Below, one piece after another: positions 548-32,628 of a stretch of DNA of 35,866 bases. The notes beneath the pieces are model-generated. The model worked only from the letters and a program-made list of their open reading frames with translations. It had not been told where the DNA came from and searched no databases. This stretch comes from a bacterium. GTDB lineage: Bacteria > Sysuimicrobiota > Sysuimicrobiia > Sysuimicrobiales > Segetimicrobiaceae. The stretch is taken from assembly GCA_035703895.1 (NCBI GenBank), contig DASSXJ010000164.1, positions 1-35,866 on the forward strand. The letters run 5' to 3'. Every line of letters begins with the position of its first letter. The stretch's first letter is position 1. The position numbers and the translations under genes are program-made.

Positions 548-1687
548 ATGCGCTACCGCCGGCAGGTCACCGGCATGGAGTACGGCAAGAGTCACTACCC
601 CGCGTACGATTCCGCCGAGTTGGGATTTCGGGGATACTGGTATCCCGTGTCCTTCTCCCGCCGCCTTCAACAGACCCCGGTCGCGATCACGCTGCTGGGG
701 GAAGAACTGTGCCTGGCTCGAGACGTGGATGGGACGGCATACTGCGTCTCAGACCGGTGTCCACACCGCGGCATTCCGCTATCAGAGGGGCAACAGGAAT
801 TTCCCGGCACCATCACCTGCCCGTACCATGGGTTCACATATGCGCTTCGGTCGGGCGAGCTCGTTGGGGTACTGACGGACGGGCCGGATTCGCCCCTGTG
901 CGGGAAGCTGCGCGTGCGCACCTATCCGGTCGAAGAGCGCGCCGGACTCGTTTGGGTATACATCGGGGACGATGCGCCCCGGCCCGTGGAGGCGGATATT
1001 CCGCAGGAGTTCCTTCATAAGCACGCTCTCGTGCTCGGCCGATTGACGGAGCGGGAGGGCGACTGGCGGCACGCGGCCGAGAACGGATTCGATGAGGGGC
1101 ACGCCAAGTATCTTCACCGGAGCTCGCTCTTCCTGTTCTTTCGGCGGGTACCGGCGTGGAGCCGGACCCGGGTCGTCACGGATAACAACGGCGTGTGGAT
1201 CTCGCGCGTGCACGACCAGATTGGATGGGAGACAGACTACCCAGGCTTGGGCCGGTGGCCGCGGTTTCGCTTCTGGCACCGGCGTGGAGCAGGTCCACGA
1301 ACGTCGATCCGGTTGCCCGGCTTGCTCCAGGTTACGTATCCGGACTGGGTGGATTTCGAGTGGTACATCCCGACCGTCGCAGGCAGGCACCTGTACGCCC
1401 AAATCGCGGTCGCGCACAGGGCCGGCCTGGGTGCGCTGCTGTACCGGCTGAAGTACTGGACATACCTCCGGCCGATCTTTCACGGTCAGTTCAACGATCA
1501 GGATGCCTGGATGGTCAGGCTCATGCGGACGCCCCCGGAGCGGCTGTATCGCCCTGACGTGTCCATCATCGCCTGGCGAAAGCTGGCGGAGACCGCACGT
1601 GCCCTCCAGACGGAGGGCCCGGCTGCGGCGATGCGCATGCCCCAGATCACCACGGAAGACGACGTGCGAGAAGAGTCGCGCGCGTAA
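548..1687 (+). CDS. Rieske-type aromatic ring-hydroxylating oxygenase, alpha subunit
   Basis: A 379-residue mononuclear-iron oxygenase component. The N-terminal Rieske domain has CPH at 71-73 and CPYH at 91-94 (ligands C71, H73, C91, H94). The catalytic domain has the NxxDxxHxxxxH iron motif at 179-190 (bridging D182; ligands H185 and H190), and a likely third ligand near D317/D319. The family inserts oxygen into aromatic or heteroaromatic substrates, or O/N-demethylates them, using electrons from a reductase. The size suits single-subunit (homotrimeric) oxygenases. No ferredoxin or reductase gene is present in the window, so electrons must come from elsewhere. ATG 548 is chosen for the GAGGGGG seven bases upstream; M10 is an alternative. 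It is the first gene of a long operon and follows operator site 1. The substrate is unknown. Confidence 0.9.
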   Translation: MRYRRQVTGMEYGKSHYPAYDSAELGFRGYWYPVSFSRRLQQTPVAITLLGEELCLARDVDGTAYCVSDRCPHRGIPLSEGQQEFPGTITCPYHGFTYALRSGELVGVLTDGPDSPLCGKLRVRTYPVEERAGLVWVYIGDDAPRPVEADIPQEFLHKHALVLGRLTEREGDWRHAAENGFDEGHAKYLHRSSLFLFFRRVPAWSRTRVVTDNNGVWISRVHDQIGWETDYPGLGRWPRFRFWHRRGAGPRTSIRLPGLLQVTYPDWVDFEWYIPTVAGRHLYAQIAVAHRAGLGALLYRLKYWTYLRPIFHGQFNDQDAWMVRLMRTPPERLYRPDVSIIAWRKLAETARALQTEGPAAAMRMPQITTEDDVREESRA

Positions 1688-1698
1688 GGGAGGGGCTG

Positions 1699-2541
1699 GT
1701 GGAGCGTCCAGTCGTCGGGGAACAAGCGGGGAAATTCATTCAGGCCGCCGGAGTGCGCCTGCACTATCATGAAATCGGCGCCGGTGAGCCGTTGATCTGC
1801 CTGCACGGCGCGGGGCCGGGGGCCAGCGCATGGAGCAACTTCAAGTCCAACGTCGGCGCGTTTGCCTCGAAACACCGAACGTATCTTGTGGACCTGCCCC
1901 AATACGGACGGTCGGACAAGGTCGTCATCGAGGGCGGGCGCCTCACGTTCACGGCCGGCGTCCTCGACGCGTTCATGGAGGCGGTAGGCTTGACCTCGGC
2001 GCACTTCGTGGGGAACTCCATGGGCGGTCAGGTGGCGCTGAAGATGGCGATCGACACTCCGCACCGCGTCAATCGCCTGGTGGTGCTGGGAGCCTCGCCC
2101 ATCTCGTTCAGCGCGTTGACCCCGCTCCCCGTGGAAGGCGTGCGTCTGATCCGCGACTACTACCGCGGGCCCGAGGGTCCCACGCAGGCCAAGATGCGGG
2201 CGCTGATGGACACCCTGGTGGCCACCTCCGGGATGATCACGGACGAGATGGTCGAAGAGCGGTACGCCGCGAGCGCGGATCCCGAGGTCGTGGCCTTGTT
2301 CACGGAAAACCCGCCGCAGAACGAGGACCTGTTCGCCCATCTGGACAAGGTCGCCGCGCCGACCCTCGTCATCTGGGGTCAGGACGATCGGTTTGGCGCG
2401 CTGGAGGTCGGGTTGTTGTTGTTGAAGCGGCTCCAACGCGCTCGAATGGTCGTCTTCCCGCGATGCGGCCACTGGGCGCATGTCGAACGCGCCGACGAGT
2501 TCAACCATCTCGTGCTCGATTTTCTCGCAGGTCGATGGTAA
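1699..2541 (+). CDS. Alpha/beta hydrolase of the meta-cleavage-product hydrolase type (MhpC/BphD-like)
   Basis: A 280-residue alpha/beta hydrolase starting at GTG, 11 bp after the Rieske gene. The oxyanion-hole region HGAGPGASAW (36-45) is typical of C-C bond hydrolases of aromatic meta-cleavage pathways. The nucleophile elbow GNSMGG places Ser107; the acid is Asp230 (WGQDDRF) and the base His258 (CGHWAHVE). The triad is complete. Such enzymes cleave the ring-opened product left by an extradiol dioxygenase. The same fold also includes N-formylmaleamate deformylase (NicD) of nicotinate breakdown, which matters because the operon is rich in amide hydrolases. The LigAB-like pair follows directly, which supports action on its product. 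Confidence 0.88.
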   Translation: MERPVVGEQAGKFIQAAGVRLHYHEIGAGEPLICLHGAGPGASAWSNFKSNVGAFASKHRTYLVDLPQYGRSDKVVIEGGRLTFTAGVLDAFMEAVGLTSAHFVGNSMGGQVALKMAIDTPHRVNRLVVLGASPISFSALTPLPVEGVRLIRDYYRGPEGPTQAKMRALMDTLVATSGMITDEMVEERYAASADPEVVALFTENPPQNEDLFAHLDKVAAPTLVIWGQDDRFGALEVGLLLLKRLQRARMVVFPRCGHWAHVERADEFNHLVLDFLAGRW

Positions 2542-2567
2542 CGTAGACTCATTCGGGAGGAAGTGCA

Positions 2568-2831
2568 ATGGGCCAGTACGAGATCAATCGCGTCCTGTTT
2601 GATTTGGTTCGGCGGCCTGATCGTCAGGAGATCCTCAAGAACCTGACGCCGTTCCTCGAAGGCTACCGCCTCGCGACCGCAGAGAAGGCCGCCTTGCTCG
2701 AACCTGGATACGGCCGCCTACTCGCGCTCGGCGCGCTTCCGAACCTTGTGTTCAAGTATTATCTCTGGCACGGCTTGCCTCCCGGCGAGTTCGCCGCCAG
2801 AGCGAAAGATGAACCGATGACCGGAGCGTGA
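2568..2831 (+). CDS. LigA-like small (alpha) subunit of an extradiol dioxygenase
   Basis: An 87-residue helical protein beginning MGQYEINRVLFDLVRRPD. It matches the LigA fold of the protocatechuate 4,5-dioxygenase alpha subunit in length and in the helical segments EGYRLATAEKAALLEPGYG and NLVFKYYLWHGL. LigA has no catalytic iron; it caps the active site of the LigB subunit, whose gene lies 37 bp downstream. ATG 2568 has GGGAGG a few bases upstream. The separate small subunit points to a class III (LigAB-type) rather than a class I enzyme. Confidence 0.8.
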   Translation: MGQYEINRVLFDLVRRPDRQEILKNLTPFLEGYRLATAEKAALLEPGYGRLLALGALPNLVFKYYLWHGLPPGEFAARAKDEPMTGA

Positions 2832-2868
2832 GCCTGCCTGAGTCTCTAGTCTAGAGGGGGGATTTGTC

Positions 2869-3687
2869 GTGGCGGAGTTGTGCCTCGGCCTGGCCACGTC
2901 GCATGTGGCGTTCATCACGCAGTCTCCGGAGATGGGCAATCCGGCGCAGGTCGAGGGATTTCGCGGCGGATACCGGAAACTCGCCCAGGCGCTGCGGGAC
3001 GCGCGTGCCGACGTGGCCGTGGTCATTTCGGGAGAACATCTGAACTACTTCTTCATCGACAACATGCCGGCGTTTTGCATCGGCGTCGCGGATGGGTTTG
3101 AAGGCCCAGCCGAACGCAGCGCGGGGATCCCCTACCGGCGCATTCCGGCATTGGCGGAGGCGGCGAGATTCTTGCTGACCACCGGCCTCGACTCGGGCGT
3201 GGATTGGGCCCGCACCGAGGGATGGGAGCTCGACCATGGGATCATGGTCCCCCTCTACATGATTGATGAGGAGGCTCGTGTGCCGATCGTGCCGGTGTTC
3301 ATCAACTGTGCAGCGCCGCCATGCCCCACCGCCCGCCGCTGCTATGCGTTTGGGGAATGGTTGCGCGATGCGATCGCGCGCTGGGATTCCTCGAAGCGGG
3401 TGGCGATCATCGCGACGGGGGGCCTCTCGCATTCCGTGGGAACCGAGCAGATGGGAAGAATCGACGAGGCGTTCGACCGCAGGTTCCTGCGCGACTTCTG
3501 CGGCGGCGATCGGCGGCAGATCGCCAACCTGACCGATGAAGAGATTGCCGCGGCCGGGAATTCCACGAGCGAAATCCGGTCGTGGATCGCGCTCGGGGGC
3601 GCGTTCGAGGAACGACCGGCAGAACTTGTCTTTTACGAACCGATCGCGGGGTTCGCCACAGGGTGTGGGCAGGTCTTGCTCCGATAG
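2869..3687 (+). CDS. LigB-like catalytic subunit of a class III extradiol ring-cleavage dioxygenase
   Basis: A 272-residue protein starting at GTG. All expected active-site residues can be placed against LigB of protocatechuate 4,5-dioxygenase: iron ligands His12 (TSHVAF), His57 (SGEHLNYFF) and Glu235 (NSTSE), and the second-sphere His123 (LDHG) and His188 (GGLSH). It should open a catechol-like or dihydroxy-heteroaromatic ring next to the diol using Fe(II) and O2. With the LigA-like subunit it should form the active enzyme, and the upstream alpha/beta hydrolase would process the product. Whether the ring is carbocyclic (protocatechuate-like) or a pyridinediol is not decided by the sequence. 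Confidence 0.88.
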   Translation: MAELCLGLATSHVAFITQSPEMGNPAQVEGFRGGYRKLAQALRDARADVAVVISGEHLNYFFIDNMPAFCIGVADGFEGPAERSAGIPYRRIPALAEAARFLLTTGLDSGVDWARTEGWELDHGIMVPLYMIDEEARVPIVPVFINCAAPPCPTARRCYAFGEWLRDAIARWDSSKRVAIIATGGLSHSVGTEQMGRIDEAFDRRFLRDFCGGDRRQIANLTDEEIAAAGNSTSEIRSWIALGGAFEERPAELVFYEPIAGFATGCGQVLLR

Positions 3688-3733
3688 CGGCACAGCCGAC
3701 GCCGTCCACCTTGCCACAGGATCGCCACGGCCG

Positions 3734-6031
3734 ATGACGTCCCGGCGCGATGCGGTGGTGGAGGCGGCGGCTCCTCCGGGACCGCCGCGCGTGCACGAAG
3801 GGGGTCCGCGCAGGTTGGAGGATTGGGAACTCCTTCGCGGCGGAGGCCTGTACGTCGATGACATCCGGCTGCGCGGCATGCTCCACGCGGCGATCTTGCG
3901 TAGCCCCGTTGCCCACGCCGCGCTCCGGCGGGTGGATGTGACGCCGGCGCTGCGATGGCCCGGCATCGTCGCCGCGCTTGCGTTCGCCGATCTGCCCCGG
4001 GAGACACCTGCGCTCCCGAACCTGCGGCCGCATCCCGCGCTTCGCGCGCGCACCGCCTTTCCACTGGCGCGCGATCGGGTGCGCTACGTCGGTGAGCCGA
4101 TCGCGGTCGTCGTGGGGACCAGCCGCTATATCGCAGAGGATGCGCTCGATTGCGTCAAGGTGGAGTATGAGGCGCTGCCAGTCGTGACCGGCCTGGGCGC
4201 CGCGGCCGAGGGCCGCCCTGCGCTGGTGCACGAGGACCTGGGATCCAATGTGGCGGCGCGGATCCGTCAGGAGACCGGCGACGTGGCCGGGGCGTTCGCG
4301 CGGGCCGATCTGGTATTGCACGACTCGTTCCACATCTCGCGGAGCACGGGCCAGGCCATGGAGACGCGCGGCGTCGTGGCGGCCGTCGACCGTGACTCGG
4401 GCGTGCTGACTGTCTGGGCGTCGTGTCAGCGCCCCCATCAGAACCGCCGTCACATCGCCGCCATGCTGGGTCTCCCGGAGGAGCGCGTCCGCGTCATTGC
4501 GCCGCACGTCGGGGGTGGATTTGGACCCAAAGGCCGGTTTTATGCGGAAGATTATCTGATCCCCCACCTCGCGCGGACACTCGGCCACCCGGTCAAGTGG
4601 ATCGAGGACCGGCGGGAACACCTGCTGACGACTACCCAAGAGCGGGAGCAGGTGCACCAGGTCTCGGTCGCCCTCGGGCGCGACGGGACGGTCCTTGGCG
4701 TACGAGACAGCTTCGTGCAGGACATGGGTGCGTACGTATCCGCCGGACTGGTGGTCCCGTTCAACACGTTGTCACTCCTCCCGGGACCGTACCGCGTCCC
4801 GGCCGTTGAAGTCGAAGCGACGTGCCTCTATACGAACCGGGTCGCCACCTCGCCGGTGCGTGGTGCCGGGCAACCCGAGGCAACCTTCGTGATGGAGCAC
4901 ATCATGGACCTGGCCGCGGCCGCGCTTCGCCTCGACCCGGCGGAGGTGCGGCGGCGGAACCTCATCGTCCCGGAGGCGATGCCCTACGCCGGGGGGCTTC
5001 GGGACATGGATGGTCAACCGATCGTGTACGACAGCGGAGACTACCCGCGGTGCCTGGCCAGGGCGCTCGAGGCGATCGGGTACGCGTCGGCCCGGCGGGA
5101 CCAGGAACGCCTGCGGGGCCAGGGTGTCTATCGTGGCATTGGGCTGGCGTGCTACGTAGAGCTGACTGGGGTCGGTCCGCAAGAAGAGGCGGTCGTTCGC
5201 GTCGACCGCGGCGGGGTGCGCGTGATCGTCGGATGCGGCTCGCAGGGACAGGGTCACCGAACGATCCTGGCGCAGGTGGCCGCGGCCGAGTTGGGCCTCC
5301 ATGCCGACGACGTCTCGGTCGTGGAAGGGGATACCGGTCTCGCCGGGGCGTCGATGGGTACCTTTGGGAGCCGGACAGCCGTCGTGGCCGGCACAGCGGT
5401 GCTGCATGCCGCCCAGGCCCTCCGGGCGAAGCTGCTCGATGAGGCCGCGGGACGGCTGAACGTGTCGAGCGCGGAGGTGACGCTGGCCGGCGGGCGCGCG
5501 TACTTGACGGAGGATCCTGGGACCAGGGTGTCGTTCAGCGGTCTGGAAGCCCGCGCCACCTTCGCGCCGAGCAGCCCGACGGTAAGCAGTGGCGTGCACG
5601 CCGTTATCGTCGAGGTGACACCGGAATCCGGCGAGGTGGTGATTTTACGATACGTGATCGTGCACGACTGCGGTCGCATGCTCGACCCCTCCCTTGTCGA
5701 AGGGCAGGTGCTCGGCGGGTTCGCGCACGGGCTCGGCGAGACACTCTACGAGCGCCTCGTCTACGACGGCGACGGGCAGCTGCTGACGACGACCTTCGTC
5801 GACTACCTTCTTCCGACGGCGGCCGAGGTGCCGGAAGTGGTGTTGGAACACATCGAGGTTCCGTCGCCGTTGAACGCCCTCGGCGCGAAAGGTGCCGGAG
5901 AGGGTGGGGTGATTCCGGTGCAGGCCGCGGTGTCGCTGGCGGTGCAGGATGCGCTGCGCCCGTTCGGCATCGCGGTCAACCGTGTCCCCCTTGCCCCGGA
6001 TATGCTGTGGCGAGCCGAGGCGGGCCGCTGA
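3734..6031 (+). CDS. Molybdenum hydroxylase large subunit (xanthine dehydrogenase/CoxL superfamily) without adjacent partner genes
   Basis: About 765 residues from ATG 3734; an open frame continues back into ligB, but conserved sequence starts only near RRLEDWELLRGGGLYVDD. The molybdopterin-binding features are present: GGGFGPK, PVRGAGQPEA, GSQGQGHRT, GSRTAVVAG and GAKGAGEGG with the catalytic Glu at about 723. The family hydroxylates carbon next to ring nitrogen, or other electron-poor carbons, with water as oxygen source. It is not CO dehydrogenase: the AYRCSFR loop with the CO-specific Cys is absent. No FAD or 2Fe-2S subunit is encoded beside it; coxM and coxS at 21413-22812, under a similar operator, are the only candidates in the window. 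The upstream ribosome site is weak, so the start is moderately certain. Confidence 0.85.
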   Translation: MTSRRDAVVEAAAPPGPPRVHEGGPRRLEDWELLRGGGLYVDDIRLRGMLHAAILRSPVAHAALRRVDVTPALRWPGIVAALAFADLPRETPALPNLRPHPALRARTAFPLARDRVRYVGEPIAVVVGTSRYIAEDALDCVKVEYEALPVVTGLGAAAEGRPALVHEDLGSNVAARIRQETGDVAGAFARADLVLHDSFHISRSTGQAMETRGVVAAVDRDSGVLTVWASCQRPHQNRRHIAAMLGLPEERVRVIAPHVGGGFGPKGRFYAEDYLIPHLARTLGHPVKWIEDRREHLLTTTQEREQVHQVSVALGRDGTVLGVRDSFVQDMGAYVSAGLVVPFNTLSLLPGPYRVPAVEVEATCLYTNRVATSPVRGAGQPEATFVMEHIMDLAAAALRLDPAEVRRRNLIVPEAMPYAGGLRDMDGQPIVYDSGDYPRCLARALEAIGYASARRDQERLRGQGVYRGIGLACYVELTGVGPQEEAVVRVDRGGVRVIVGCGSQGQGHRTILAQVAAAELGLHADDVSVVEGDTGLAGASMGTFGSRTAVVAGTAVLHAAQALRAKLLDEAAGRLNVSSAEVTLAGGRAYLTEDPGTRVSFSGLEARATFAPSSPTVSSGVHAVIVEVTPESGEVVILRYVIVHDCGRMLDPSLVEGQVLGGFAHGLGETLYERLVYDGDGQLLTTTFVDYLLPTAAEVPEVVLEHIEVPSPLNALGAKGAGEGGVIPVQAAVSLAVQDALRPFGIAVNRVPLAPDMLWRAEAGR

Positions 6032-6033
6032 GC

Positions 6034-7365
6034 GTGTCGAACATCGTGGACACGCTGACGGCACAACAGCGGCACTGGGTGGACGCCGCATGGGCCAGCA
6101 TCGACCGCGATGTCTTGGCCCGTCTGCTCACGGCGATGGTGAACATTCCGAGTCCGCCCGGCGAAGAGCGGGCGCTCGCGGAATTCATCGCCGGCCATCT
6201 GCGGGAGCACGGCCTGCGGGCCCACTGCCAGTTCCTGGACGACCAGCAGGCCAATGCCGTCGGAGTCTGCCCCGGCCGAGGCGGGGGCGCGGATCTCCTG
6301 TTGTACTCGCCAATCGACACGGCGTTCACTGGGACGGAAATTGACGATCTCCCTTGGACCGGTGCCTCCCTGCGGCCGGATCTCGTGCCGGTTGCGACGA
6401 CCCAGGATGGCTTCGTTGTGGGGCTCGGTGCGGAGAACCCCAAAGGGTACGCCGCGTGCATCATCGGGGCCGCCGAGGCCATTGCCCGAGCGGGTATCCC
6501 GCTTCTGGGGGACCTCGTCGTTGGGCTCGGCGCGGGCGGGATGCCGGCAAACGCGCCCCTCCACCGCCGCGGGCGCCGCAACATCGGCCAAGGGGTCGGC
6601 TGCGCCCACATGCTCGAGCAGGGCGTGCGCGGCGATTTTGCCCTCATCGCCAAGCCCGGGTGGACGGTATCGTACGAAGAGGTCGGCGTGTGTTGGTTCC
6701 GCATCGATGTCAAAGGCACCCTGGCATACACGGGCATGAGGCACATTCTTCCCTATCAGAACGCGATTGTGGCTGCCGGGGAGGTGACGCAGGCGCTAGA
6801 ACGGTGGTTCCCCGAGTATACCGCCCGCAACACATCGGGGGCCGTTGCACCTCAGGGAAGCATCGGTGCGATCGTCGGTGGCTGGCCGCACAAGCCGGCG
6901 TTCACGCCTGCCGTCTGTCAGATACACGTCGACCTCCGGGTGAACCCGCGGACCAGCCCGTCCGGCGTCAAGGCGCAGTTCGCGCAGGCGATGGACGAGA
7001 TCCACCGCGCCCATCCGCATCTCGACTTCGGGTGGGAGATGGTCCTGGGCATCCCCGGCAGCCATTCGGATCCCGACGGCTGGATCGTGCGGGCCGCCGT
7101 TCGCGGATGGGAAGCGCTTGAGGGAAGGCCCCACGTGGCCGAGGGGAACAAGAGCGGCGCGACCGACGCGAACATCCTCCGGCAGTGGGGTGTGCCTACC
7201 GCCCGCATCGGCATGCCGCGACCGCCGTCTTCGGGGCCGTTCGCCGGTCAGTTTTCGATGGGCGTCGTGCACCTAGAGAGCGTGTATACGCTGATCAAGT
7301 TGCTGATCCACGTCGCCGTCGATACCTGCACCAGGCCGCGTCGCGAACTCGGGCTGGAGTCCTGA
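6034..7365 (+). CDS. M20-family-like protein with a degenerate metal site
   Basis: A 443-residue protein from GTG 6034, two bases after the preceding stop; an upstream in-frame start at 6007 would overlap that gene. The fold follows M20 hydrolases, but the metal ligands seen in the intact paralogue at 9591 are replaced: the HxD motif reads YSPID (Pro93 for His, Asp95 kept), the bridging Asp of GATDAK is Asn135 (GAENPKG), and the Glu-Glu pair is absent (GAGGMP, 166-171). A His survives near the C-terminus (GVVHLES). It may therefore bind metal differently, act by another mechanism, or be a non-catalytic partner. The frame is intact and the protein looks conserved rather than decaying. It overlaps the next gene by one base. 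Confidence 0.75.
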   Translation: MSNIVDTLTAQQRHWVDAAWASIDRDVLARLLTAMVNIPSPPGEERALAEFIAGHLREHGLRAHCQFLDDQQANAVGVCPGRGGGADLLLYSPIDTAFTGTEIDDLPWTGASLRPDLVPVATTQDGFVVGLGAENPKGYAACIIGAAEAIARAGIPLLGDLVVGLGAGGMPANAPLHRRGRRNIGQGVGCAHMLEQGVRGDFALIAKPGWTVSYEEVGVCWFRIDVKGTLAYTGMRHILPYQNAIVAAGEVTQALERWFPEYTARNTSGAVAPQGSIGAIVGGWPHKPAFTPAVCQIHVDLRVNPRTSPSGVKAQFAQAMDEIHRAHPHLDFGWEMVLGIPGSHSDPDGWIVRAAVRGWEALEGRPHVAEGNKSGATDANILRQWGVPTARIGMPRPPSSGPFAGQFSMGVVHLESVYTLIKLLIHVAVDTCTRPRRELGLES

Positions 7366-7889
7366 TGTCCACCGCAGCGGCCTTCGGCGCGGCGGCGCGG
7401 GAGGTCTATGCCGCATTGAAAGGCGCGAACGTGGATTTCGCGGTGTACCTTCCCGACAGCGTGCTTTATCCCGTGACGGATTTGCTCGAGGCCGATCCTC
7501 AGATCCGTACCGTGGTGTGCTCGCGCGAGGACGAGGGTGTTGCGATTGCGGCCGGCGCTTACCTGGGAGGGCGCCGCCCCGTCGTGCTCATGGAGGGTTC
7601 GGGGATGGGCTACTGCGGCCTGATCTTGGCCCGGGCCCTCCTGCAGCGGACACCCATGCTGGTCCTGGCCAGCCACAACCGTGTGCTGGGGGAGCGCTTC
7701 GACTACCATGGGGCCACCCGGATTGTCGGCGAGGGGACCGCGGAGGGCCTCGGCATCCCGCACCTGGTCGTCCACGACGCCGGGTTGCTCGGTACGTCGG
7801 TTCGAGGAGCCATGCAAACGATCCAGGGACAGAAGATTCCCGTCTGCGTGTTCATTCCGGCGTATGTCATTCAGGGAATGGGGCCGTGA
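7365..7889 (+). CDS. ThDP-dependent decarboxylase, PYR-domain subunit (ComD/sulfopyruvate decarboxylase alpha-like)
   Basis: A 174-residue stand-alone pyrimidine-binding domain of a thiamin-diphosphate enzyme. ATG 7365 overlaps the preceding stop by one base. The cofactor-activating Glu lies in SREDEGVAIAAGAYLGG (E55/E57), and EGSGMGYC resembles the QNSGLGN loop of ComD. The partner PP domain is the next gene, overlapping by four bases. In sulfopyruvate and phosphonopyruvate decarboxylases, such pairs remove CO2 from pyruvates carrying a polar group at C3. Here the likely role is decarboxylation of a 2-oxo acid from ring cleavage; the exact substrate is unknown. Confidence 0.8.
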   Translation: MSTAAAFGAAAREVYAALKGANVDFAVYLPDSVLYPVTDLLEADPQIRTVVCSREDEGVAIAAGAYLGGRRPVVLMEGSGMGYCGLILARALLQRTPMLVLASHNRVLGERFDYHGATRIVGEGTAEGLGIPHLVVHDAGLLGTSVRGAMQTIQGQKIPVCVFIPAYVIQGMGP

Positions 7890-12625: not shown

Positions 12626-12657
12626 GGCCCGCAACAACGCATAGGGGGGAGGACGGC

Positions 12658-13680: not shown

Positions 13681-13746
13681 GCACGCGACGCCTTCGGGCC
13701 GGAGCCGTGCGACCGGACGGAACCGCGGAGGGAGGACGGAGCACTG

Positions 13747-14454: not shown

Positions 14455-14458
14455 GCAG

Positions 14459-15889: not shown

Positions 15890-15911
15890 GACCGCGAGGG
15901 GGGTGTACGTG

Positions 15912-17028: not shown

Positions 17029-17047
17029 CCTGTATCCCGTATCCAAC
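17029..17047. promoter_or_regulatory. Putative GntR/FCD operator upstream of the cyclic amidohydrolase gene (site 2)
   Basis: The sequence CCTGTATCCCGTATCCAAC has half-sites TGTAT and ATCCA around the spacer CCCGT. The spacer is identical to that of site 3, and the second half-site differs from ATACA at one base. It lies 29 bp before ATG 17077 in the only long gap of the region. A strong CAGGAGG ribosome site follows at about 17064-17070. It is the weakest of the three sites. Confidence 0.5.
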
Positions 17048-18441: not shown

Positions 18442-18476
18442 TTGCCCCGACGCCCGCGAGGGGGGAGACACGCCGA

Positions 18477-19703: not shown

Positions 19704-19719
19704 GCAGAGGCACCGCACG

Positions 19720-20286: not shown

Positions 20287-21084
20287 TCAGGCGCGTGTTG
20301 GGGTCTCGCGGCCACGCTTGCGGGATGGAGGCTGAGTGACGGTCTCGTTCTTTCGGCGCCGCGATCCGTTGGAACCAGGCGGCGGCGCCGGCTGACTGCG
20401 GGCGACGCGCGCCTGTCCGAAAAACGCCCGCCGGGCGTTTGCCACGTGAAGCCGGGCGGCCTGCTCCGCGGCGTCGGGATCGCGCCCGGCAATGGCCTCG
20501 AACATCGCCGCATGTTCGGCCCGGATCTCGTCCGCCCGGCCGTGCCGGGTGAGCGAGATCATCTTGCCGTGCTCGATGTACTCGGCGTATTGGGTCAGGA
20601 TGCCGACCAGGCGCCGGTTCCGCCCCATTCGGTACAGCAGCTCGTCGAACTGCGTATGGATCTGCGCCGCCCGTTCGAAGTTGTTAGCCTGCGATGCCTC
20701 GTTGATTTGTTCGAGCAGCCGCCCGAGCTCGCTCAACTCTTCGTCGGTGGCGTGCTGGGCCGCCAGCCGGGCAGCGAGGCCCTCCAGCACTTCCCGGGTC
20801 GCGTAGATCTCGTCGATATCCTGGCGGGAGAACCCGGTCACGATGACCCCGCGGCGCGACTGATACCGCACCAGTCCTTCGATCTCGAGCTTCCGAATCG
20901 CTTCGCGCACGGGGGTCCGGCTGACCTTGAACTGCTCGGCCAGATCTTCTTCGATCAGCTTCTGTCCGGTCTCGAGGCGTCCCGTGATGATCAGATGCCG
21001 AAGATGATTGAACAATAGCTCGCGAATGTTCTTGTAATCGCCCCGCCGGAGCGCGTCGATATGCGCTTCGATAGCCGTCTCCAT
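20287..21084 (-). CDS. GntR-family transcriptional regulator, FCD subfamily
   Basis: 265 residues from ATG 21084, chosen for a GGAGG six bases before it; GTG 21108 would add eight residues. The winged helix-turn-helix spans about 22-85, with recognition region DLAEQFKVSRTPVREAIRKLE. The FCD ligand-binding domain (about 90-222) has D147, H191 and H213 at places where FCD proteins bind a metal. FCD regulators respond to organic acids, often pathway intermediates, and mostly repress. After the FCD domain comes an unusual basic tail of about 38 residues rich in Arg, Pro and Ser. It is divergent from coxM, and the shared gap holds operator site 3, so autoregulation and control of the cox operon are likely. 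Confidence 0.9.
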   Translation of the reverse strand: METAIEAHIDALRRGDYKNIRELLFNHLRHLIITGRLETGQKLIEEDLAEQFKVSRTPVREAIRKLEIEGLVRYQSRRGVIVTGFSRQDIDEIYATREVLEGLAARLAAQHATDEELSELGRLLEQINEASQANNFERAAQIHTQFDELLYRMGRNRRLVGILTQYAEYIEHGKMISLTRHGRADEIRAEHAAMFEAIAGRDPDAAEQAARLHVANARRAFFGQARVARSQPAPPPGSNGSRRRKNETVTQPPSRKRGRETPTRA

Positions 21085-21343
21085 CCGCGCCTCCGGTCTC
21101 CCGCCCACGCAGGCGACGCACTAGTCGCTTTGAGGAACGCGCGCTCTACGGGCAGTATACACTAACTGTCGCGCTTTTGGGCGCGGCGGGCGCGCCTGCG
21201 GGCTGGCTCATCTTATTGGCACCATCGAAGTAGGCGGAATGAACAGCGCTGCGGCGCCAAAGTGTGAGTGGAGGGATCGAGAGATTTCCGGTCGAAGACG
21301 CATCGCGTCACGGTGGGAAGCGACGGGTGTCGGGGTCGCAAGA

Positions 21344-21362
21344 ATTGTATCCCGTATACAAT
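21344..21362. promoter_or_regulatory. Putative GntR/FCD operator upstream of coxM (site 3, best copy)
   Basis: ATTGTATCCCGTATACAAT is a perfect 7-bp inverted repeat, ATTGTAT and ATACAAT, around the spacer CCCGT. It lies 50 bp before the coxM start and in the shared region with gntR. TATACAAT within it could also be a -10 element, so binding would block transcription. It is the reference for sites 1 and 2. Confidence 0.7.
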
Positions 21363-21399
21363 CCCGCCGGATCGTCGCCAATTCGCCGAGGAACGGTAC

Positions 21400-21404
21400 G
21401 GAGG
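21400..21404 (+). promoter_or_regulatory. Ribosome binding site fixing the coxM start
   Basis: GGAGG lies eight bases before GTG 21413. It decides between this start and in-frame starts further upstream, which would run through the operator. Confidence 0.7.
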
Positions 21405-21412
21405 CACATCTC

Positions 21413-22300
21413 GTGTTGCGACGGTTCGAACTGCATCAACCCGCGACAGTCCAGGAAGCGAGCCGGCTTCGCGGTCGATATGGCGACGATGCCGGATTTT
21501 ACGCCGGAGGCACGGAGTTGCTGCTCGTCATGAAAGAAGGGCTGCTCCGGTACGGACATTTAGTCGATCTCAAGACGATCCCCAGGCTCGACGGCATTGT
21601 CCACGACGCCGGCTCGAACACATTGCGGATCGGCGCCGTCGCGACGCACACGTCTGTCGAGCGCTCGCCGGTGGTGGCGCGCCACTTTCCGCTTTTGGCC
21701 GAGGTCGAGCGCGCGGTCGCGAACGTGCGCGTTAAGAATGTGGGCACGATCGGCGGCAACCTATGTTTCGCGGAACCGCACGCCGACCCGGGGACGCTGT
21801 GCGTCGCGTGCGAGGCGATCATGCATCTCGAAGGGCCCGCGGGATGCCGGGAAGTTCCGGCTGGCGAGTTCTTCCTCGATGCGTACGAAACGGCCCGCGG
21901 GGCGGATGAGGTGTTGACGGAGGTTCGCCTGCCGGTTCCCGGGCCGCACACATGCGGCGCCTACATGAAGTTCGGATTTCACGAGCGCCCGACGCTGGGC
22001 GTCGCGGTTCTGCTGATGCTGGACACCGGTCACGCGCACGTCGCGGAGGCGCGGGTGGCGGTCGGGTGCGTTCATCCCCGTCCCACGCGCCTACGGGAGG
22101 TGGAGGTCAAGATCAAAGGGCGGACGGTCGCCGACGTGCTCCGGACGCTCGACGAGATCTCCCAGGCGGTGGACGGTACCATCACCCCGACAGACGACCT
22201 GCACGGGTCCGCGGAATACAAGACGGAGATGACCAAGGTATTCGTGCGCCGTGCAATCCGGACCGCCTGCGCGCGCTTTGACGGAGGGCACCTGTCATGA
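21413..22300 (+). CDS. coxM: Molybdenum hydroxylase FAD-binding medium subunit (CoxM-like)
   Basis: 295 residues from GTG 21413. The vanillyl-alcohol-oxidase-type FAD domain has the two hallmark motifs: AGGTELL (31-37; usually AGGTDLL) and TIGGNL (112-117). The C-terminal CO-dehydrogenase-flavoprotein domain follows. It passes electrons from the 2Fe-2S subunit to an acceptor. It overlaps coxS by the ATGA at 22297. The symbol refers to the family; the enzyme is not a CO dehydrogenase. It may also serve the orphan large subunit at 3734. Confidence 0.88.
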   Translation: MLRRFELHQPATVQEASRLRGRYGDDAGFYAGGTELLLVMKEGLLRYGHLVDLKTIPRLDGIVHDAGSNTLRIGAVATHTSVERSPVVARHFPLLAEVERAVANVRVKNVGTIGGNLCFAEPHADPGTLCVACEAIMHLEGPAGCREVPAGEFFLDAYETARGADEVLTEVRLPVPGPHTCGAYMKFGFHERPTLGVAVLLMLDTGHAHVAEARVAVGCVHPRPTRLREVEVKIKGRTVADVLRTLDEISQAVDGTITPTDDLHGSAEYKTEMTKVFVRRAIRTACARFDGGHLS

Positions 22301-22812
22301 CGGTGGCCGCTGCCGGCGGAAACGCCCGGCCGACAATGGACGTGGCAGTCACGGTAAACGGGCGCCGGCACGTCCTGAGGATCGAGCCGTGCGACCTGCT
22401 GGTCGACACGCTCCGCGACCAACTCGGACTCACCGGCACGAAGCGGTCCTGTGACGTGCAGGTGTGCGGGGCATGCACGGTACTCGTCGGGGGAGCACCG
22501 GTGAGTGCGTGTACGTATCTGACGTACGAGGCGCGGGACAAGGAGGTCCTGACGATCGAGGGGCTGGCGCAGGGCGACGCACTGCACCCGATGCAGCAGG
22601 CATTCATCGACCACGCCGCGCTCCAGTGCGGGTTCTGCACCCCGGGGATGATCCTCGCCGCGACCGCGCTCGTGCGGGAGCATCCTCGCCCGTCCGTCGC
22701 CGCGATCAAGCACTACATGCGCGGCAACATCTGCCGCTGCACGGGCTACAAGAAGATTCTCGAGGCCATCCAGGCCGCCGCCGAGGTCATCGCCCGGGAC
22801 GGGGAGCGGTAG
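22297..22812 (+). CDS. coxS: Molybdenum hydroxylase 2Fe-2S small subunit (CoxS-like)
   Basis: 171 residues. The plant-type ferredoxin cluster is bound by C52, C57, C60 and C72 (KRSCDVQVCGACTV); the helical-domain cluster is bound by C111, C114, C146 and C148 (CGFCTPGM and CRCTGY). All eight ligands are present. The usual Gly two residues before the second Cys (GxCGAC) is Gln55 here, a local oddity. The N-terminus is about 12 residues longer than usual; M14 is a possible alternative start. The subunit moves electrons from the Mo site to FAD. Confidence 0.92.
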   Translation: MTVAAAGGNARPTMDVAVTVNGRRHVLRIEPCDLLVDTLRDQLGLTGTKRSCDVQVCGACTVLVGGAPVSACTYLTYEARDKEVLTIEGLAQGDALHPMQQAFIDHAALQCGFCTPGMILAATALVREHPRPSVAAIKHYMRGNICRCTGYKKILEAIQAAAEVIARDGER

Positions 22813-22849
22813 ACGTGCCGGAGTCCCGGCCTCCTTGTCGTAAGCAGAG

Positions 22850-25246
22850 ATGATGCCGGCGCGCGGAGACTCTCCCAAACCCCAGGTCCGGGACGTTTCG
22901 GTGATGTCCTTTAACGATCGCACCGCAACCCGGACGGGCGGGACGAAGGTTGAGGAGCTGCGGCGCGGGGCGGTCGGCCGATCCGTCGTTCGGCACGACG
23001 CGCGGGAGAAGGTGACGGGTGCCGCCGAGTTTGCGACGGATGTGCGGCGGCCCGAAATGGCCCACGGCAAAGTCTGGCGGAGCCCGGTACCGCACGCACG
23101 CATTCTTCGAATCGACACCGCCGCGGCGGAGCAGGCCCCCGGGGTCATTTGCGTTGTGACTCGGGAGGATTTTGCGGGCATCGATCCCTACTATGGGCCG
23201 GTGTACAAGGACCAGCCGATTCTTGCGATCGACCGCGTCCGGTACGAGGGGGAGCCGGTCGTCGCCGTCGTCGCGCGGACCGAGCGGGAGGCCGAGGCGG
23301 CGGTCGAGTTGGTCCACGTGGAACTAGAGCCGCTCCCGTACGTCACCTCGCTCGACGAGGCCATCGCCCCCGGCGCGCCCCTGGTTCACGAGACGCTGCG
23401 ACAGGCCGGGCAGTTTCGGGACCTTGCGGCGCTCCGCCCGGTGGAGGGAACGAACATCTGCCACCTCTGGCAGTACGAGCGGGGATCCGCTGACATGCTC
23501 CTTGCCGGCGAGCGGCTCTTCGACGATACCTTTGTGTTTCCGATGGTGCACCATCTCTCGATGGAGCCCCACGTCATGATCGCGGAAGCGGACGGCGACC
23601 GCATCACGCTGTGGGGCGCGACGCAGCACCCGTTCCCGGTCCGCTATGAGCTGGCCCAAATGTTCGACGTGCCCGTCGCGTGGGTGCGGATCGTCGTCCC
23701 GTTCATCGGCGGGGCCTACGGCAACAAGTCCTATACGAAGATCGAGCCGCTTGCGGTCATGATGGCCCGGAAGGCGCGTGTCCCGGTGCGTTTCGCGCTG
23801 ACCTCTGCGGAGGCGTTCAGGACCGTTCGGGGCCCCGGCGCGCGATGCCGGATTCGGACCAAGGTCAATCCCGACGGTACGATCCTGGCCCGCCATCTGG
23901 AGGTTCTCTTCCAGGCCGGCGCGTATGCCGACGTCGGGCCCCGCGTGGCGCAGAAGGCAGGGTACACCGCGGGCGGGCCGTACCGGATCCCGCATCTTCG
24001 GATCGACAGTTGCGCGGTGTACACGAACACCGCGCCGAGCGTGGCGTTCCGCGGCTACGGGGTCCCGCAGCTCACGTGGGCATACGAGGCCCAACTGGAC
24101 GCGATCGCCGCAGCACTGGGTATCGATCGGGTCGAGATCCGCCGCCGCAACCTGCTGCGGAAAGGCGAAGAGGTCATGCCGGGGGACCGGCCCGCGGATG
24201 GCGACTTCATCGAGGGGCTGGAGCGGGCCGCCGCTGCCATCCGGTGGACGTCTCGTGGGGAGCCGGCAGAAGGGCGTGGTGTAGCGTGCACCATCAAGGC
24301 CCCGCTCGCGCCGAGCGTGTCGACAGCCATCGCCCGGCTGCACGCGGATGGCTCGGTGGGCGTGCTGTGCGGTACGGTCGAGATCGGCCAGGGCGCTCGC
24401 ACGGTGATGGCGCAGATTGCGGCGGAGGAGCTCGGCATGTCGACCGACCGCGTCCGCGCCGTGATGGTGGATACGCAAGCATCCCCGTATGATCAGGCCA
24501 CGAGCAGTAGCCGCTCGACGACGATGACAGGACAGGCGGTCCAGACCGCCGCGCGGGACCTCCGCGGCCAAGTTATTGCCATCGCCGCGCGGCTCCTTGA
24601 GGTCAATCCTGAGACGATTCAGGTGCGCGACGGGCGCGTGTGGGCCGGGACCACATCGCTGGGTCTCAACGAGATCATCGCCCGACACTACGGACTGCCG
24701 GCGGGCGAGCTGATCGGGCGGGGCACGATCCGCGGAGAGCGCGGTGGTTTGCTCGGCGGCATCGTGCCGTTCTGGGAAGCGGCGTCGGCCGCGGTCCGCG
24801 TGCGCGCCGACCCCGAAACCGGCCACGTGCGCGTGCTGGACTACGTCTCCGTCGCGGACGTGGGCCGCGCGATCAACCCGCAGCAGTGTGAAGGACAGGA
24901 CGAGGGCGGGGCCATGATGGGGCTAGGGCATACGTTCTTCGAGGAAATGCGGTACGAGGACGGTCAGCTGCTGAACGGTAGCCTGGTCGACTACCGCGTC
25001 CCGCAATTCGACGATGTACCGGACGCGCTGCAGTCCATCCTCGTCGAGAATGGCGACGGGACGGGCCCGTTCGGCGCCAAAGGCATCGGTGAGGGAGGGC
25101 TGATTCCGACGTCGCCGGCGGTGGCCTCCGCGATCTGGGAGGCAACCGGGGCGCGCCTGCATGAGTTGCCGATGACGCCGGAGCGCGTCTGGCGGGCGCT
25201 GAGGCGAACACGCCCCCGTGCGAGTGAGACGCGAGCGGAGCGATGA
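22850..25246 (+). CDS. Molybdenum hydroxylase large subunit 1 (CoxL/XdhA superfamily)
   Basis: 798 residues from ATG 22850; an ATG at 22904 is possible, as clear homology begins near AVGRSVVRHDAREKVTGAAEFA. Mo-cofactor motifs: GGAYGNKSYTK (usually GGGFGxK), VAFRGYGVPQ, TVEIGQGARTVMAQ, SSRSTTMTGQAV and GAKGIGEGG with the catalytic Glu at about 748. The FRGYG loop lacks the CO-specific Cys, so a hydroxylase of N-heterocycles, aldehydes or similar is expected. A four-base overlap couples it to a second large subunit. It shares one coxM/coxS pair with it. Confidence 0.88.
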   Translation: MMPARGDSPKPQVRDVSVMSFNDRTATRTGGTKVEELRRGAVGRSVVRHDAREKVTGAAEFATDVRRPEMAHGKVWRSPVPHARILRIDTAAAEQAPGVICVVTREDFAGIDPYYGPVYKDQPILAIDRVRYEGEPVVAVVARTEREAEAAVELVHVELEPLPYVTSLDEAIAPGAPLVHETLRQAGQFRDLAALRPVEGTNICHLWQYERGSADMLLAGERLFDDTFVFPMVHHLSMEPHVMIAEADGDRITLWGATQHPFPVRYELAQMFDVPVAWVRIVVPFIGGAYGNKSYTKIEPLAVMMARKARVPVRFALTSAEAFRTVRGPGARCRIRTKVNPDGTILARHLEVLFQAGAYADVGPRVAQKAGYTAGGPYRIPHLRIDSCAVYTNTAPSVAFRGYGVPQLTWAYEAQLDAIAAALGIDRVEIRRRNLLRKGEEVMPGDRPADGDFIEGLERAAAAIRWTSRGEPAEGRGVACTIKAPLAPSVSTAIARLHADGSVGVLCGTVEIGQGARTVMAQIAAEELGMSTDRVRAVMVDTQASPYDQATSSSRSTTMTGQAVQTAARDLRGQVIAIAARLLEVNPETIQVRDGRVWAGTTSLGLNEIIARHYGLPAGELIGRGTIRGERGGLLGGIVPFWEAASAAVRVRADPETGHVRVLDYVSVADVGRAINPQQCEGQDEGGAMMGLGHTFFEEMRYEDGQLLNGSLVDYRVPQFDDVPDALQSILVENGDGTGPFGAKGIGEGGLIPTSPAVASAIWEATGARLHELPMTPERVWRALRRTRPRASETRAER

Positions 25247-27552
25247 TCGACCGAATGTCGAACGCAGCGATGTTGGTGGTGGTCGGGCGGCCCGCCCCGC
25301 GTGTGGACGCCGTGGACAAAGTGACCGGGCGCACGGTGTATGTGTCGGAGTTCGCCGTGCCGGGCATGCTCGAGGCGCGGATTCTCCGCAGTCCGGTGCC
25401 GCATGCCCGAATCGTCCGGATCGACGCCTCCCGTGCCGAAGCGCTTCCCGGTGTGGTCACGGTGTTGACCGCCGCGGATGTGAAGGACATCGATCCGTAC
25501 TACGGCATGGCATTCAAGGACCAACCGCTCGTGGCTATCGAGCGCGTCCGCTACCAGGGCGAGCCGCTCGCCGCGGTCGCTGCCGTGGATGCGCGGACAG
25601 CGGAGGGGGCGCTCGAGTTGATCACAGTGGAGTACGACGAACTGCCCGTTGTGGCGACTATCGACGACGCGCTCACCGCCGACAGCCCGCGGCTGCACGC
25701 CGAACTCAGGCCGAGCGGGGCCTTCCGCGATCTGCGTTCGCTCCAGCCAGTCCCGGGCACGAACATCTGTCACACATACCGTCTGCGCCGGGGGGACGTG
25801 GCCGCGGCATTCGCCTCGGCGGACGTCGTGATGGAGGACGTATACACACTTCCTCCCGTGCAGCACTATTCGCTCGAGTCATTCGTCGCGATCGCCTCCT
25901 GGACGCGGGACGGGCTCGAGGTCTGGTCCTCTACGCAGCATCCGTTCCACGTCCGCCGGGAGCTGGCGCAGATGTTCGGGCTCGCGCACCAGGCGGTCCG
26001 CGTGCATGCACCGATGATGGGCGGGGCGTTCGGACAAAAGTGTTACACAAAACTGGAGCCTCTCGCCGCCGCCCTGGCGCGAAAGGCGGACCGGCCGGTC
26101 CGGGTGGCGCTCACGATTCCCGAGGCGTTCCTCACGCTGACGCGGCACGGCGCCCGGGTGCACATCAAGACTGCGGCTCGCCGCGACGGCACGCTCGTGG
26201 CGCGCAAGGCCGAATTGTGGCTCGACACCGGTGCCTATGCGGACGTCGGGCCGCGCGTCACCCAGAAAGCCGGCTACCGGTCGATCGGCCCCTACCGGTG
26301 GGCCGACCTCGAGATCGATGCGTACTGCGTCTTTACCAACAAAGTGCCCGCCGGTGCCTTTCGTGGCTACGGCGGTCCCCAGGCCGGCTGGGCGGGGGAG
26401 TCGCAGATCACCGAGCTCGCCATCGCCCTAGGACTCGATCCCGTTGAGCTGCGCCGCCGCAATCTGCTGGGCCTAGGGGAGAAATACGATCGTGCGGATA
26501 CCCCGCTCGACGGCGACATCAGAGCGCAGGTCGACTGCGTGGAACGCGTCCTCGCCGCACCCGGTGCGGTCGCCGAGGGCCGCGGCCGCGGGATCGCCGT
26601 GGGGTTCAAGGACGGCGGCGGGACGCATACGGTCTCCAACTCAATCGTGCGCCTGCACGCCGACGGCAGCGCGACAGTTGGCGCCGGCAGCGTGGAGATC
26701 GGTCAGGGGGCGCGCACCGTGATGGCACAGATCGCAGCGGAGGCGCTCTCGCTTCCGCTCGATCGGGTCCACGTGCCCGAGCCCGACACGGACATCACGC
26801 CGTACGATCAGGGCACGAGCGCCAGCCGGTCCACGACGCTGATGGGATACGCCGTCTGGCAAGCCGGCCTCGACGTTCGGCGTCAACTCACGGACATCGC
26901 CGCGGAGGCATTCGAGGCCCCCCCCGATGTGGTGCGTCTCGCAGACGGTGTTGCGTCTGCCGGGCCGCGCCGCATGACCTATGCGGAGCTTATCGCGCGC
27001 CACTTCGGCATGCCCGGCGGTGAATTGATCGGCACCGGGGTGTTCCGCCCCGGCACGTTTACCGGTCCTCTCGGCGGCTCGACCGCCTTCTGGGAGATGG
27101 GGGTGGGTGGCGCTGAGGTCGACGTGGATGTAGAGACAGGGGAGGTCCGGCTGGCCCGGTACATCTCAACCGCCGACGTCGGTCGCGCCATCAACCCCGC
27201 GCTGTCTGAGGGACAGGACGAAGGCGCGGCGATGCAAGGGATCGGGCATGCGCTTCGGGAGGAGTTGGTGTTCGAGCACGGACAGCTCCTCAACGGGGGG
27301 ATCATCGACTACACGGTCCCGACCATGGAGATGTTGCCCGATGAGTTCGCTTCAATCCTGTTTGAAAACGGCGGCGGCCCCGGACCCTACGGCGCCAAGG
27401 GGATCGGCGAAGCCGGCATCGTCGCGCCGGCGCCGGCGATTGCCGCGGCCCTGTATGCGGCCACCGGCGTGTGGGTGCGGGACCTGCCGCTGACGCCAGA
27501 GCGCGTGTGGCGTGCGCTTCGAGCCGCGCGCGAGGCGCGAAGCGCACGCTGA
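25243..27552 (+). CDS. Molybdenum hydroxylase large subunit 2 (CoxL/XdhA superfamily), tandem paralogue
   Basis: 769 residues; ATG 25243 overlaps the preceding stop (ATGA). It is collinear with large subunit 1, sharing GPRVTQKAGYRSIGPYR-like, AFRGYGGPQ, SVEIGQGARTVMAQIAAEAL, SASRSTTLMGYAV and GAKGIGEAG (catalytic Glu at about 723). All cofactor motifs look intact, so this is not a decayed copy. The two may be alternative large subunits with different substrates or partners in a mixed complex. It is more like its neighbour than like the large subunit at 3734. It ends the cox operon; 65 bp follow before the next gene. Confidence 0.88.
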   Translation: MIDRMSNAAMLVVVGRPAPRVDAVDKVTGRTVYVSEFAVPGMLEARILRSPVPHARIVRIDASRAEALPGVVTVLTAADVKDIDPYYGMAFKDQPLVAIERVRYQGEPLAAVAAVDARTAEGALELITVEYDELPVVATIDDALTADSPRLHAELRPSGAFRDLRSLQPVPGTNICHTYRLRRGDVAAAFASADVVMEDVYTLPPVQHYSLESFVAIASWTRDGLEVWSSTQHPFHVRRELAQMFGLAHQAVRVHAPMMGGAFGQKCYTKLEPLAAALARKADRPVRVALTIPEAFLTLTRHGARVHIKTAARRDGTLVARKAELWLDTGAYADVGPRVTQKAGYRSIGPYRWADLEIDAYCVFTNKVPAGAFRGYGGPQAGWAGESQITELAIALGLDPVELRRRNLLGLGEKYDRADTPLDGDIRAQVDCVERVLAAPGAVAEGRGRGIAVGFKDGGGTHTVSNSIVRLHADGSATVGAGSVEIGQGARTVMAQIAAEALSLPLDRVHVPEPDTDITPYDQGTSASRSTTLMGYAVWQAGLDVRRQLTDIAAEAFEAPPDVVRLADGVASAGPRRMTYAELIARHFGMPGGELIGTGVFRPGTFTGPLGGSTAFWEMGVGGAEVDVDVETGEVRLARYISTADVGRAINPALSEGQDEGAAMQGIGHALREELVFEHGQLLNGGIIDYTVPTMEMLPDEFASILFENGGGPGPYGAKGIGEAGIVAPAPAIAAALYAATGVWVRDLPLTPERVWRALRAAREARSAR

Positions 27553-32623: not shown

Positions 32624-32628
32624 GCGGC

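Follow-up and report, generated by a model that had tools for sequence, protein, structure and literature searches.

A 27-kb gene island at positions 548–27552 of the window (the whole stretch analysed, 35,866 nt, contig DASSXJ010000164.1 of assembly GCA_035703895.1, from a bacterium of the family Segetimicrobiaceae, phylum Sysuimicrobiota) appears to be a real, uncharacterised catabolic regulon made of known kinds of enzymes. With a probability of about one half, it is best explained as one GntR/FCD-controlled regulon composed of separable modules and dedicated most likely to an N-heteroaromatic carboxylic acid, which probably is aryl-fused or carries an aryl group. Two recurrent and apparently undescribed modules are involved: a UbiD decarboxylase with molybdenum (Mo) hydroxylases, an isochorismatase and an importer; and car-type ring-cleavage genes with an M20 protein devoid of metal ligands. 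A candidate operator links both into one regulon, in a lineage seemingly without isolates. The source assembly comprises 4.38 Mb in 337 contigs, with the island on contig C164. Sysuimicrobiota consists of one class and one order (PMC11604079); counts within the phylum refer to a sample of 43 genomes, all from one order.

Genes on the plus strand follow the order Rieske oxygenase (RO), alpha/beta hydrolase (ABH), LigA, LigB, the Mo-hydroxylase large subunit CoxL1, M20a (6007–7365), ComD, ComE, a dihydroorotate dehydrogenase (DHODH)-like protein, M20b (9591–10994), the ATPase and permease of an ATP-binding cassette (ABC) importer, binding protein 1, isochorismatase (ISO), UbiD, binding protein 2, a cyclic amidohydrolase (HYD, 17077–18441), a C45 hydrolase and CoxG. 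The 3′ part holds GntR on the minus strand, then CoxM, CoxS, CoxL2 and CoxL3 on the plus strand. Every enzyme family listed by the sequence-only reading was detected where that reading had placed it, with scores far above chance; corrections to its gene inventory concern function only. In the plus-strand run 548–16940, intergenic gaps do not exceed 127 bp and many genes overlap. Three transcription units (548–16940, 17077–20172 and 21413–27552) are delimited, because three palindromes of a common type stand upstream of them. The island is modular: module A covers 548–10994, and module B includes the ABC importer, ISO, UbiD, CoxMSL, CoxG and GntR. Three Mo-hydroxylase large subunits are encoded, versus a single gene each for the flavin adenine dinucleotide (FAD) subunit (CoxM) and the Fe–S subunit (CoxS). 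Rfam gave no RNA elements.

Unity of the island is suggested mainly by its promoters. The perfect palindrome ATTGTATCCCGTATACAAT (21344–21362, 0 mismatches, ∼60 bp upstream of CoxM) was spotted first, by eye, and the remaining sites serve as a test; 0.04 matches to it are expected at up to three mismatches. When its core, TGTATNNNNNATACA, is allowed at most one mismatch, only two further sites occur in the window (∼0.13 expected by composition): TGTATATTGTATACA at 461–475, with no mismatch and ∼80 bp upstream of the Rieske gene, and TGTATCCCGTATCCA at 17031–17045, with one mismatch and ∼39 bp upstream of the HYD start at 17077. The core thus lies 39–80 bp upstream of all three transcription units, and since the same operator-like site precedes each of them, it supports joint control of modules A, B and HYD by one GntR regulon through a candidate operator. 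No site stands before the ABC genes; therefore UbiD, ISO and the importer probably lie on the RO transcript. Among 1997 upstream segments of 120 bp from other loci, eight carry the core at no more than one mismatch, homologous sites included. Homologous promoters with the palindrome occur in G023, a genome of the same order and another family (two sites between HYD and UbiX/GntR), in a Bacillota metagenome-assembled genome (MAG) at the ISO/GntR divergence (L034), and in Nocardioides daejeonensis (two sites). The palindrome is absent within 300 bp upstream of HYD in the eight relatives tested, which lack the island. Inverted repeats of at least 12 bp were not found in the promoters; the arms of the operator-like site measure 7 bp. 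The sequence-only view of the island as catabolic, and as equipped with an importer and a regulator of its own, is upheld, the shared site arguing for one regulon.

The first four genes of module A are homologous to carAa, carC, carBa and carBb of carbazole degradation. The CarAa-like Rieske oxygenase alpha subunit (548–1687; PF00355 and PF11723) has carbazole 1,9a-dioxygenases as its closest solved structures and shares 33–36% identity with CarAa of pCAR1/pCAR3, a level that does not settle the substrate, in particular angular carbazole dioxygenation. Aligned with CarAa, it matches at CPHRG…CPYHGF, FDEGHAKYLH and FNDQDAW, and has the Rieske CxH…CxxH motif, the 2-His-1-carboxylate Fe site and a PF11723-type catalytic domain. 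The ABH (1699–2541) belongs to the family of C–C hydrolases acting on meta-cleavage products, with 262 bits to HsaD and 215 bits to BphD, both below the equivalog cut-offs, and 28–30% identity to CarC. Next comes a LigA/CarBa-like small subunit of a class III extradiol dioxygenase (2568–2831), an 87-codon gene before LigB that the sequence-only reading did not name. It scores 20.4 bits with PF07746 (cut-off 25.3), is 32% identical to one KA1 CarBa, while two other CarBa proteins give no significant match, and is 36% identical to a Defluviicoccus homologue; the call is accepted despite the low score because position, length and the Defluviicoccus homologue support it. The LigB/CarBb-type dioxygenase (2869–3687; PF02900, 124 bits) shares 32–33% identity with CarBb and 53% with its Defluviicoccus counterpart. 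Its alignment with LigB and MhpB shows the positions of the Fe ligands and catalytic His to be kept (TSHVAF, GEHLNYFF, LDHGIMVP, GGLSHSV and SEIRSWI).

The carAa-carBa-carBb-carC genes of pCAR1 and pCAR3 thus resemble the window in uniting four families in one operon (a homotrimeric-type Rieske oxygenase, small and large class III extradiol subunits and a C–C hydrolase), and the pCAR3 locus has a GntR regulator nearby. In contrast, identities reach only 28–36%, the window hydrolase is second in order, no ferredoxin or reductase accompanies the set, and CoxL1, M20, ComDE and DHODH-like genes follow it; an M20-fold protein was not seen in car loci. Module A recurs elsewhere. Defluviicoccus bin129 has an ISO-M20a-RO-ABH-LigA-LigB run with 27–53% identity to the window proteins (M20a 52%, RO 50%, ABH 46%, LigA 36%, LigB 53%). 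Three actinomycetes combine RO, ABH, M20a and LigB with nearby MhpD/MhpE-type genes (identified by eye), and on plasmid p1 of Cupriavidus necator C39 both M20a and RO occur, with genes of MhpB/C/D/E type on the other side of the start of the record. No RO stands beside two Chloroflexi homologues of M20a.

M20a (6007–7365) is a rare marker of module A, found in 1 of 386, 3 of 396 and 1 of 398 genomes, mostly beside RO and LigB, and within the phylum sample in this genome only. A profile built from ten homologues has 5-nitroanthranilate aminohydrolase as its top match (1e-78), with other M20 enzymes far behind, and the AlphaFold2 model (mean predicted local distance difference test score, pLDDT, 84) matches the fold of the same enzyme with a template modelling (TM) score of 0.80. 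That enzyme (5K8M–5K8P) is the closest solved structure by both sequence and fold, but its metal-site His and Glu residues and Arg289 are replaced in M20a by Pro, Gly, Lys and Phe. In the RO-associated proteins, HxD becomes SPIDT, DxKG becomes NPKG (ENPKG), the Glu-Glu pair GGMP (AGGMP), the next acidic ligand KPG (AKPG), and Arg289 Phe. An ordinary M20 amidase is excluded, since the metal ligands (HxD, D/N, EE or E, E/D, H) are replaced; by its sequence, M20a would either catalyse a new kind of reaction or serve as a partner protein without catalysis. Alongside Rieske and extradiol genes, proteins of this kind are kept in several phyla at 42–53% identity (L158, L159, L165, L166 and L142). At E ≤ 1e-85, 3 of 38 genomes selected by their UbiD have M20a, versus 2 of ∼1177 others (Fisher p = 2.7e-4), a co-occurrence that is suggestive only, the UbiD genomes being a non-random sample. 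The metal motifs of M20b (9591–10994) are intact; of the two M20 amide hydrolases proposed earlier, the second stands and the first does not.

Also in module A, CoxL1 (3815–6031, start approximate) has no FAD or Fe–S genes of its own, and its closest solved structures are a CO dehydrogenase-type CoxL (8uem) and quinoline 2-oxidoreductase. Aerobic CO dehydrogenase was considered and rejected: the loop reads PVRGAGQPE versus AYRCSFR in form I, and scores are 753 bits against a cut-off of 950 (NF040766) and 462 against 991 (TIGR02416). A ComD-like thiamine pyrophosphate (TPP)-binding subunit (7365–7889; PF02776; TIGR03845 at 71 bits, below cut-off) precedes a ComE-like TPP catalytic subunit of a 2-oxoacid decarboxylase (7886–8515; PF02775; TIGR03846 and TIGR03297 below cut-off). 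The DHODH-like enzyme of the sequence-only reading is present as a divergent class-2 flavoprotein (8494–9594), scoring 200.2 bits versus 361 for the canonical pyrD of its own genome. NxSSPNTPG is changed to ALRCPNTPD, with the catalytic Ser replaced by Cys, and ATNT to VSGT, with loss of the Asn residues that bind orotate. Judged from these residues, it is a divergent second copy without the Ser/Asn set of quinone-type PyrD.

Module B begins with the importer. Its ATPase and permease, of TauBC/SsuBC type by family matches, span 11065–12625, and two NMT1/THI5-like binding proteins (12685–13680 and 15903–16940) score 106 and 109 bits with PF09084. Sulfonate uptake was rejected, as matches to the TauB/SsuA families fall below cut-off and the window has no sulfur genes. 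ISO (13747–14454) is an isochorismatase-fold amidohydrolase resembling N-carbamoylsarcosine amidohydrolase (CSHase) and NicF; CSHase (26st) is the closest solved structure, others including 3ot4/3uao, and the Asp-Lys-Cys triad is conserved in relatives. UbiD (14459–15889; closest solved structure 7pda) is assigned to the decarboxylases using prenylated flavin mononucleotide (prFMN) by 272 bits with TIGR00148, above cut-off, and by the YR and EGPFGE motifs (active-site Arg and two Glu) kept across relatives. The second Mo-hydroxylase locus encodes CoxM (21413–22300, start approximate; PF00941, 145 bits), the 2x[2Fe-2S] subunit CoxS (22297–22812; PF01799, 115 bits) and the large subunits CoxL2 (22850–25246), with a VAFRGYG loop, and CoxL3 (25243–27552), 45% identical to a Variovorax plasmid enzyme adjoining an isochorismatase. 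Purine hydroxylation by CoxL2 or CoxL3 was also rejected: scores are below every xanthine dehydrogenase cut-off, and Ser/Cys stands where the purine-binding Glu follows GGGFGGK. The GntR/FCD regulator (20287–21108, minus strand; PF00392 and PF07729) is 50–56% identical to regulators in the Bacillota MAG and in G023. CoxG, an SRPBCC protein (19720–20172; PF06240), is 53–84% identical to CoxG adjoining dihydroorotase and pyrD in relatives. The C45 Ntn (N-terminal nucleophile) hydrolase (18477–19703) scores 116 bits with NF040521, above cut-off; a C45 gene next to HYD was seen only in this genome and in G023 (62% identity) among the loci examined, and its plasmid relatives are haloarchaeal.

Module B recurs in several phyla in varied arrangements. 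Of 80 named UbiD loci, 23 have CoxS-like genes in the neighbourhood, 22 an ABC ATPase, nine UbiX, eight ISO and five GntR, and UbiX adjoins module B in several other genomes. Comparable combinations, drawn from ABC, ISO, CoxG, CoxM, CoxL, CoxS, a hydrolase, UbiD, IclR and UbiX, occur in Nocardioides daejeonensis, the Bacillota MAG (UbiD 56%, ISO 56%, GntR 50%) and several actinomycetes. The actinomycete cluster ABC-ISO/CoxG-CoxM-CoxL-CoxS-hydrolase-UbiD-IclR-UbiX (Actinophytocola, Saccharopolyspora and Streptomyces) shares the importer type, isochorismatase, CoxG, CoxMLS and UbiD with the window, but has one large subunit versus two, IclR versus GntR, UbiX, and no Rieske/LigAB part. At three such loci (L093, L103 and L106), the hydrolase is PcaD-like, and ISO and UbiX are present in L093 and L106. 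No paper describing this cluster was found, and literature searches on UbiD with a Mo hydroxylase and an isochorismatase, on PDB 7PDA and on quinoline clusters gave nothing relevant. G023 has HYD, C45, CoxG, CoxM, CoxS, CoxL2, UbiD, PNPOx and CoxL3, followed by pyrE and pyrD, with UbiX and GntR divergent. On its contig C7 (L020/L019), pyrE, pyrD and a gene for DNA ligase follow immediately after the Mo-hydroxylase/UbiD genes, and pyrimidine biosynthesis genes may be co-transcribed there with catabolic ones.

Closest CoxL3 relatives on plasmids include Variovorax clusters with SRPBCC, CoxM, CoxS, an FAD monooxygenase and ISO; that of Variovorax sp. SRS16 (plasmid 3) additionally has an alpha/beta hydrolase and an M29-type ‘leucyl aminopeptidase’. 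Identities to the Variovorax plasmid cluster are 45% for CoxL3, 60% for CoxS and 36% for ISO, and the nicotinate-type maleamate (nic) pathway likewise combines a Mo hydroxylase, an isochorismatase-fold amidase and an alpha/beta hydrolase. 2,5-Dihydroxypyridine dioxygenases can bear the M29 ‘leucyl aminopeptidase’ annotation; no family model matched the SRS16 M29-type protein. Unlike these systems, the window has UbiD instead of an FAD monooxygenase, has LigAB, and contains no gene resembling the M29-type protein. The marks of the nic pathway, 6-hydroxynicotinate monooxygenase and 2,5-dihydroxypyridine dioxygenase, are missing among the annotated genes of the window, where neither an FAD monooxygenase nor an additional ring-cleaving dioxygenase was found. 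Identification of its substrate could establish module B as a UbiD-based counterpart of the step in known pyridine-acid pathways that decarboxylates oxidatively.

HYD (17077–18441) had been taken for a pathway enzyme. By descent, residues and synteny, it is instead the dihydroorotase of the family, a housekeeping gene within a catabolic island that can mislead pathway prediction. All nine near-complete family genomes have it (68–87% identity), as does G023 (75%); the two family genomes without it are only 64–68% complete. In four relatives (G005, G008, G009 and G010), its orthologue has CoxG and the only canonical pyrD as neighbours; it is adjacent to pyrD in G002, and lies within ∼3 kb of it in G011 and at 2.8 kb in G001. 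All members of the clade, which is split from the paralogues with support 1.0, have the Arg of HxHxR, the Asn of MPN and the His of TDxxPH, taken to be the residues binding the substrate carboxylate in dihydroorotases. Only HYD, among three TIGR00857 matches in the genome, has the full signature; the two pyrC-like paralogues lack the residue set, and one is barely over the family cut-off (279.3 versus 279.05 bits). Class II pyrC (TIGR00856) gave no match in the 26 genomes searched. pyrB is single copy on contig C292, and the canonical pyrD lies at 2033–3079 of C132. HYD is most likely the cell's PyrC, placed by these comparisons under the candidate operator of the island. Its presence is therefore no evidence for a step on an N-heterocycle.

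The window CoxG shares 84% identity with its counterpart next to HYD in G009 and 71% with that in G005; judged by sequence and neighbourhood, HYD and CoxG descend from an ancestral pyrC-coxG-pyrD locus. HYD is orthologous to the dihydroorotase adjoining the canonical pyrD of the de novo pyrimidine pathway in relatives, but in the window pyrD no longer stands beside it, and an operator-like site of the catabolic regulon has been acquired. A phospholipid-methyltransferase-like gene downstream of the island (28124–28588) has a 53% homologue (L122, 4735–5199) near HYD, beside pyrD in G001, which supports the site of the island as the ancestral pyr locus. The Mo-hydroxylase genes reflect either an insertion at that locus or a loss in relatives. 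In several family genomes (L129, L122, L120, L136 and L137), the canonical pyrD adjoins a CO dehydrogenase-like CoxL gene.

An N-heterocycle is the likeliest substrate class because RO, LigAB and the hydrolase match the carbazole set, and because the closest annotated plasmid relatives of the Mo hydroxylase and ISO lie in a Variovorax cluster; the earlier proposal of an N-heterocycle pathway is partly supported on these grounds, and fails in its arguments from the cyclic amidohydrolase and from the first M20 gene. In the route that we infer, the ABC system would take up an N-heteroaromatic acid, and the Mo hydroxylases would add a hydroxyl to the N-ring adjacent to nitrogen, one CoxM/CoxS pair serving two or three large subunits. 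Dihydroxylation and meta-cleavage of the carbocycle would fall to the Rieske enzyme and LigAB, and the side chain would be shortened by ABH and the ComDE-type decarboxylase. UbiD, with prFMN made elsewhere, would decarboxylate the hydroxylated ring acid, and nitrogen would be released by ISO and M20b. HYD, as a housekeeping PyrC brought under the operator, would not need a role in the pathway. The nature of the substrate and the order of import, hydroxylation, ring cleavage, decarboxylation and nitrogen release are predictions of the same kind.

Several observations weigh against this single N-heteroaromatic regulon. The complete gene set was not found in any other genome examined, and modules A and B recur elsewhere without each other adjacent. 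The window has no gene for a Rieske reductase or ferredoxin and none for UbiX. At one locus with a 49% identical GntR (L045), the best candidate palindromes have two mismatches. The nitrogen of the substrate is suggested by homology of ISO, the Mo hydroxylases and the car-type genes. Neighbourhood comparison, which the sequence-only reading had named as its own refutation test, went against the three parts being kept together: LigB is absent from the 42 other genomes in the sample of the phylum, and in other phyla each module turns up on its own. The claim of unity is upheld by the regulatory evidence of the palindrome, not by neighbourhood. It is possible, though on balance rather unlikely, that two independent catabolic loci are simply neighbours, A degrading an aromatic by meta-cleavage, and B acting on a pyridine-type acid through hydroxylation and decarboxylation by UbiD, with no intermediate exchanged. 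Either module is found alone in other genomes, and within the phylum sample LigB and M20a occur only here, which fits such a juxtaposition; the upstream palindrome common to both modules, and the continuation of module A into importer, ISO and UbiD on the same strand with gaps of no more than 127 bp, argue against it.

Other substrates are less probable. Degradation of a carbocyclic aromatic acid, with no nitrogen in the ring, is doubtful: the Mo hydroxylases would act in the manner of 4-hydroxybenzoyl-CoA reductase or of an aldehyde dehydrogenase, and UbiD in that of the phenylphosphate or hydroxyarylate (de)carboxylases. The alpha subunit of that reductase is indeed the best NCBIfam match of CoxL2 and CoxL3 and the best PDB match of CoxL3, and phenylphosphate carboxylase beta is the top NCBIfam equivalog score of UbiD, below cut-off. 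However, the window has no CoA ligase, an isochorismatase of the CSHase/NicF group accompanies module B in several phyla, and the closest annotated plasmid neighbours of CoxL3 include a cluster with an FAD monooxygenase and an isochorismatase. Quite improbable is a pyrimidine or orotate-like route, in which Mo hydroxylases would build or modify a pyrimidine acid, the DHODH-type enzyme reduce it, dihydroorotase open it and ISO take off the carbamoyl group. The dihydroorotase residues of HYD, the DHODH-type gene, the G023 pathway genes leading into pyrE and pyrD, and the affinity of ISO for CSHase would suit it, but HYD stands beside pyrD in island-free relatives and is hence housekeeping, and the DHODH copy lacks the orotate-binding asparagines. 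A link through UbiD neighbourhoods in other phyla was rejected, pyr genes being near UbiD in 2 of 80 loci, about chance. Least credence goes to a benzo-fused N-heteroaromatic 2-carboxylate of the quinaldate/kynurenate type, whose carbocycle the car-type Rieske enzyme and LigAB would open, whose 2-oxoacid side chain ComDE would decarboxylate, with an aldehyde oxidised by CoxL1, and whose pyridone carboxylate the DHODH-like and dihydroorotase-type enzymes would reduce and open to an amino acid. Genes are not known to be assigned to several of the enzymes in kynurenate degradation.

Downstream of the island, the minus strand at 29266–34621 encodes a GspE/PilB-type ATPase (29266–30948), an adjacent gene without family match (31012–32520) and a phosphoesterase-family gene, which are apparently unrelated to it.

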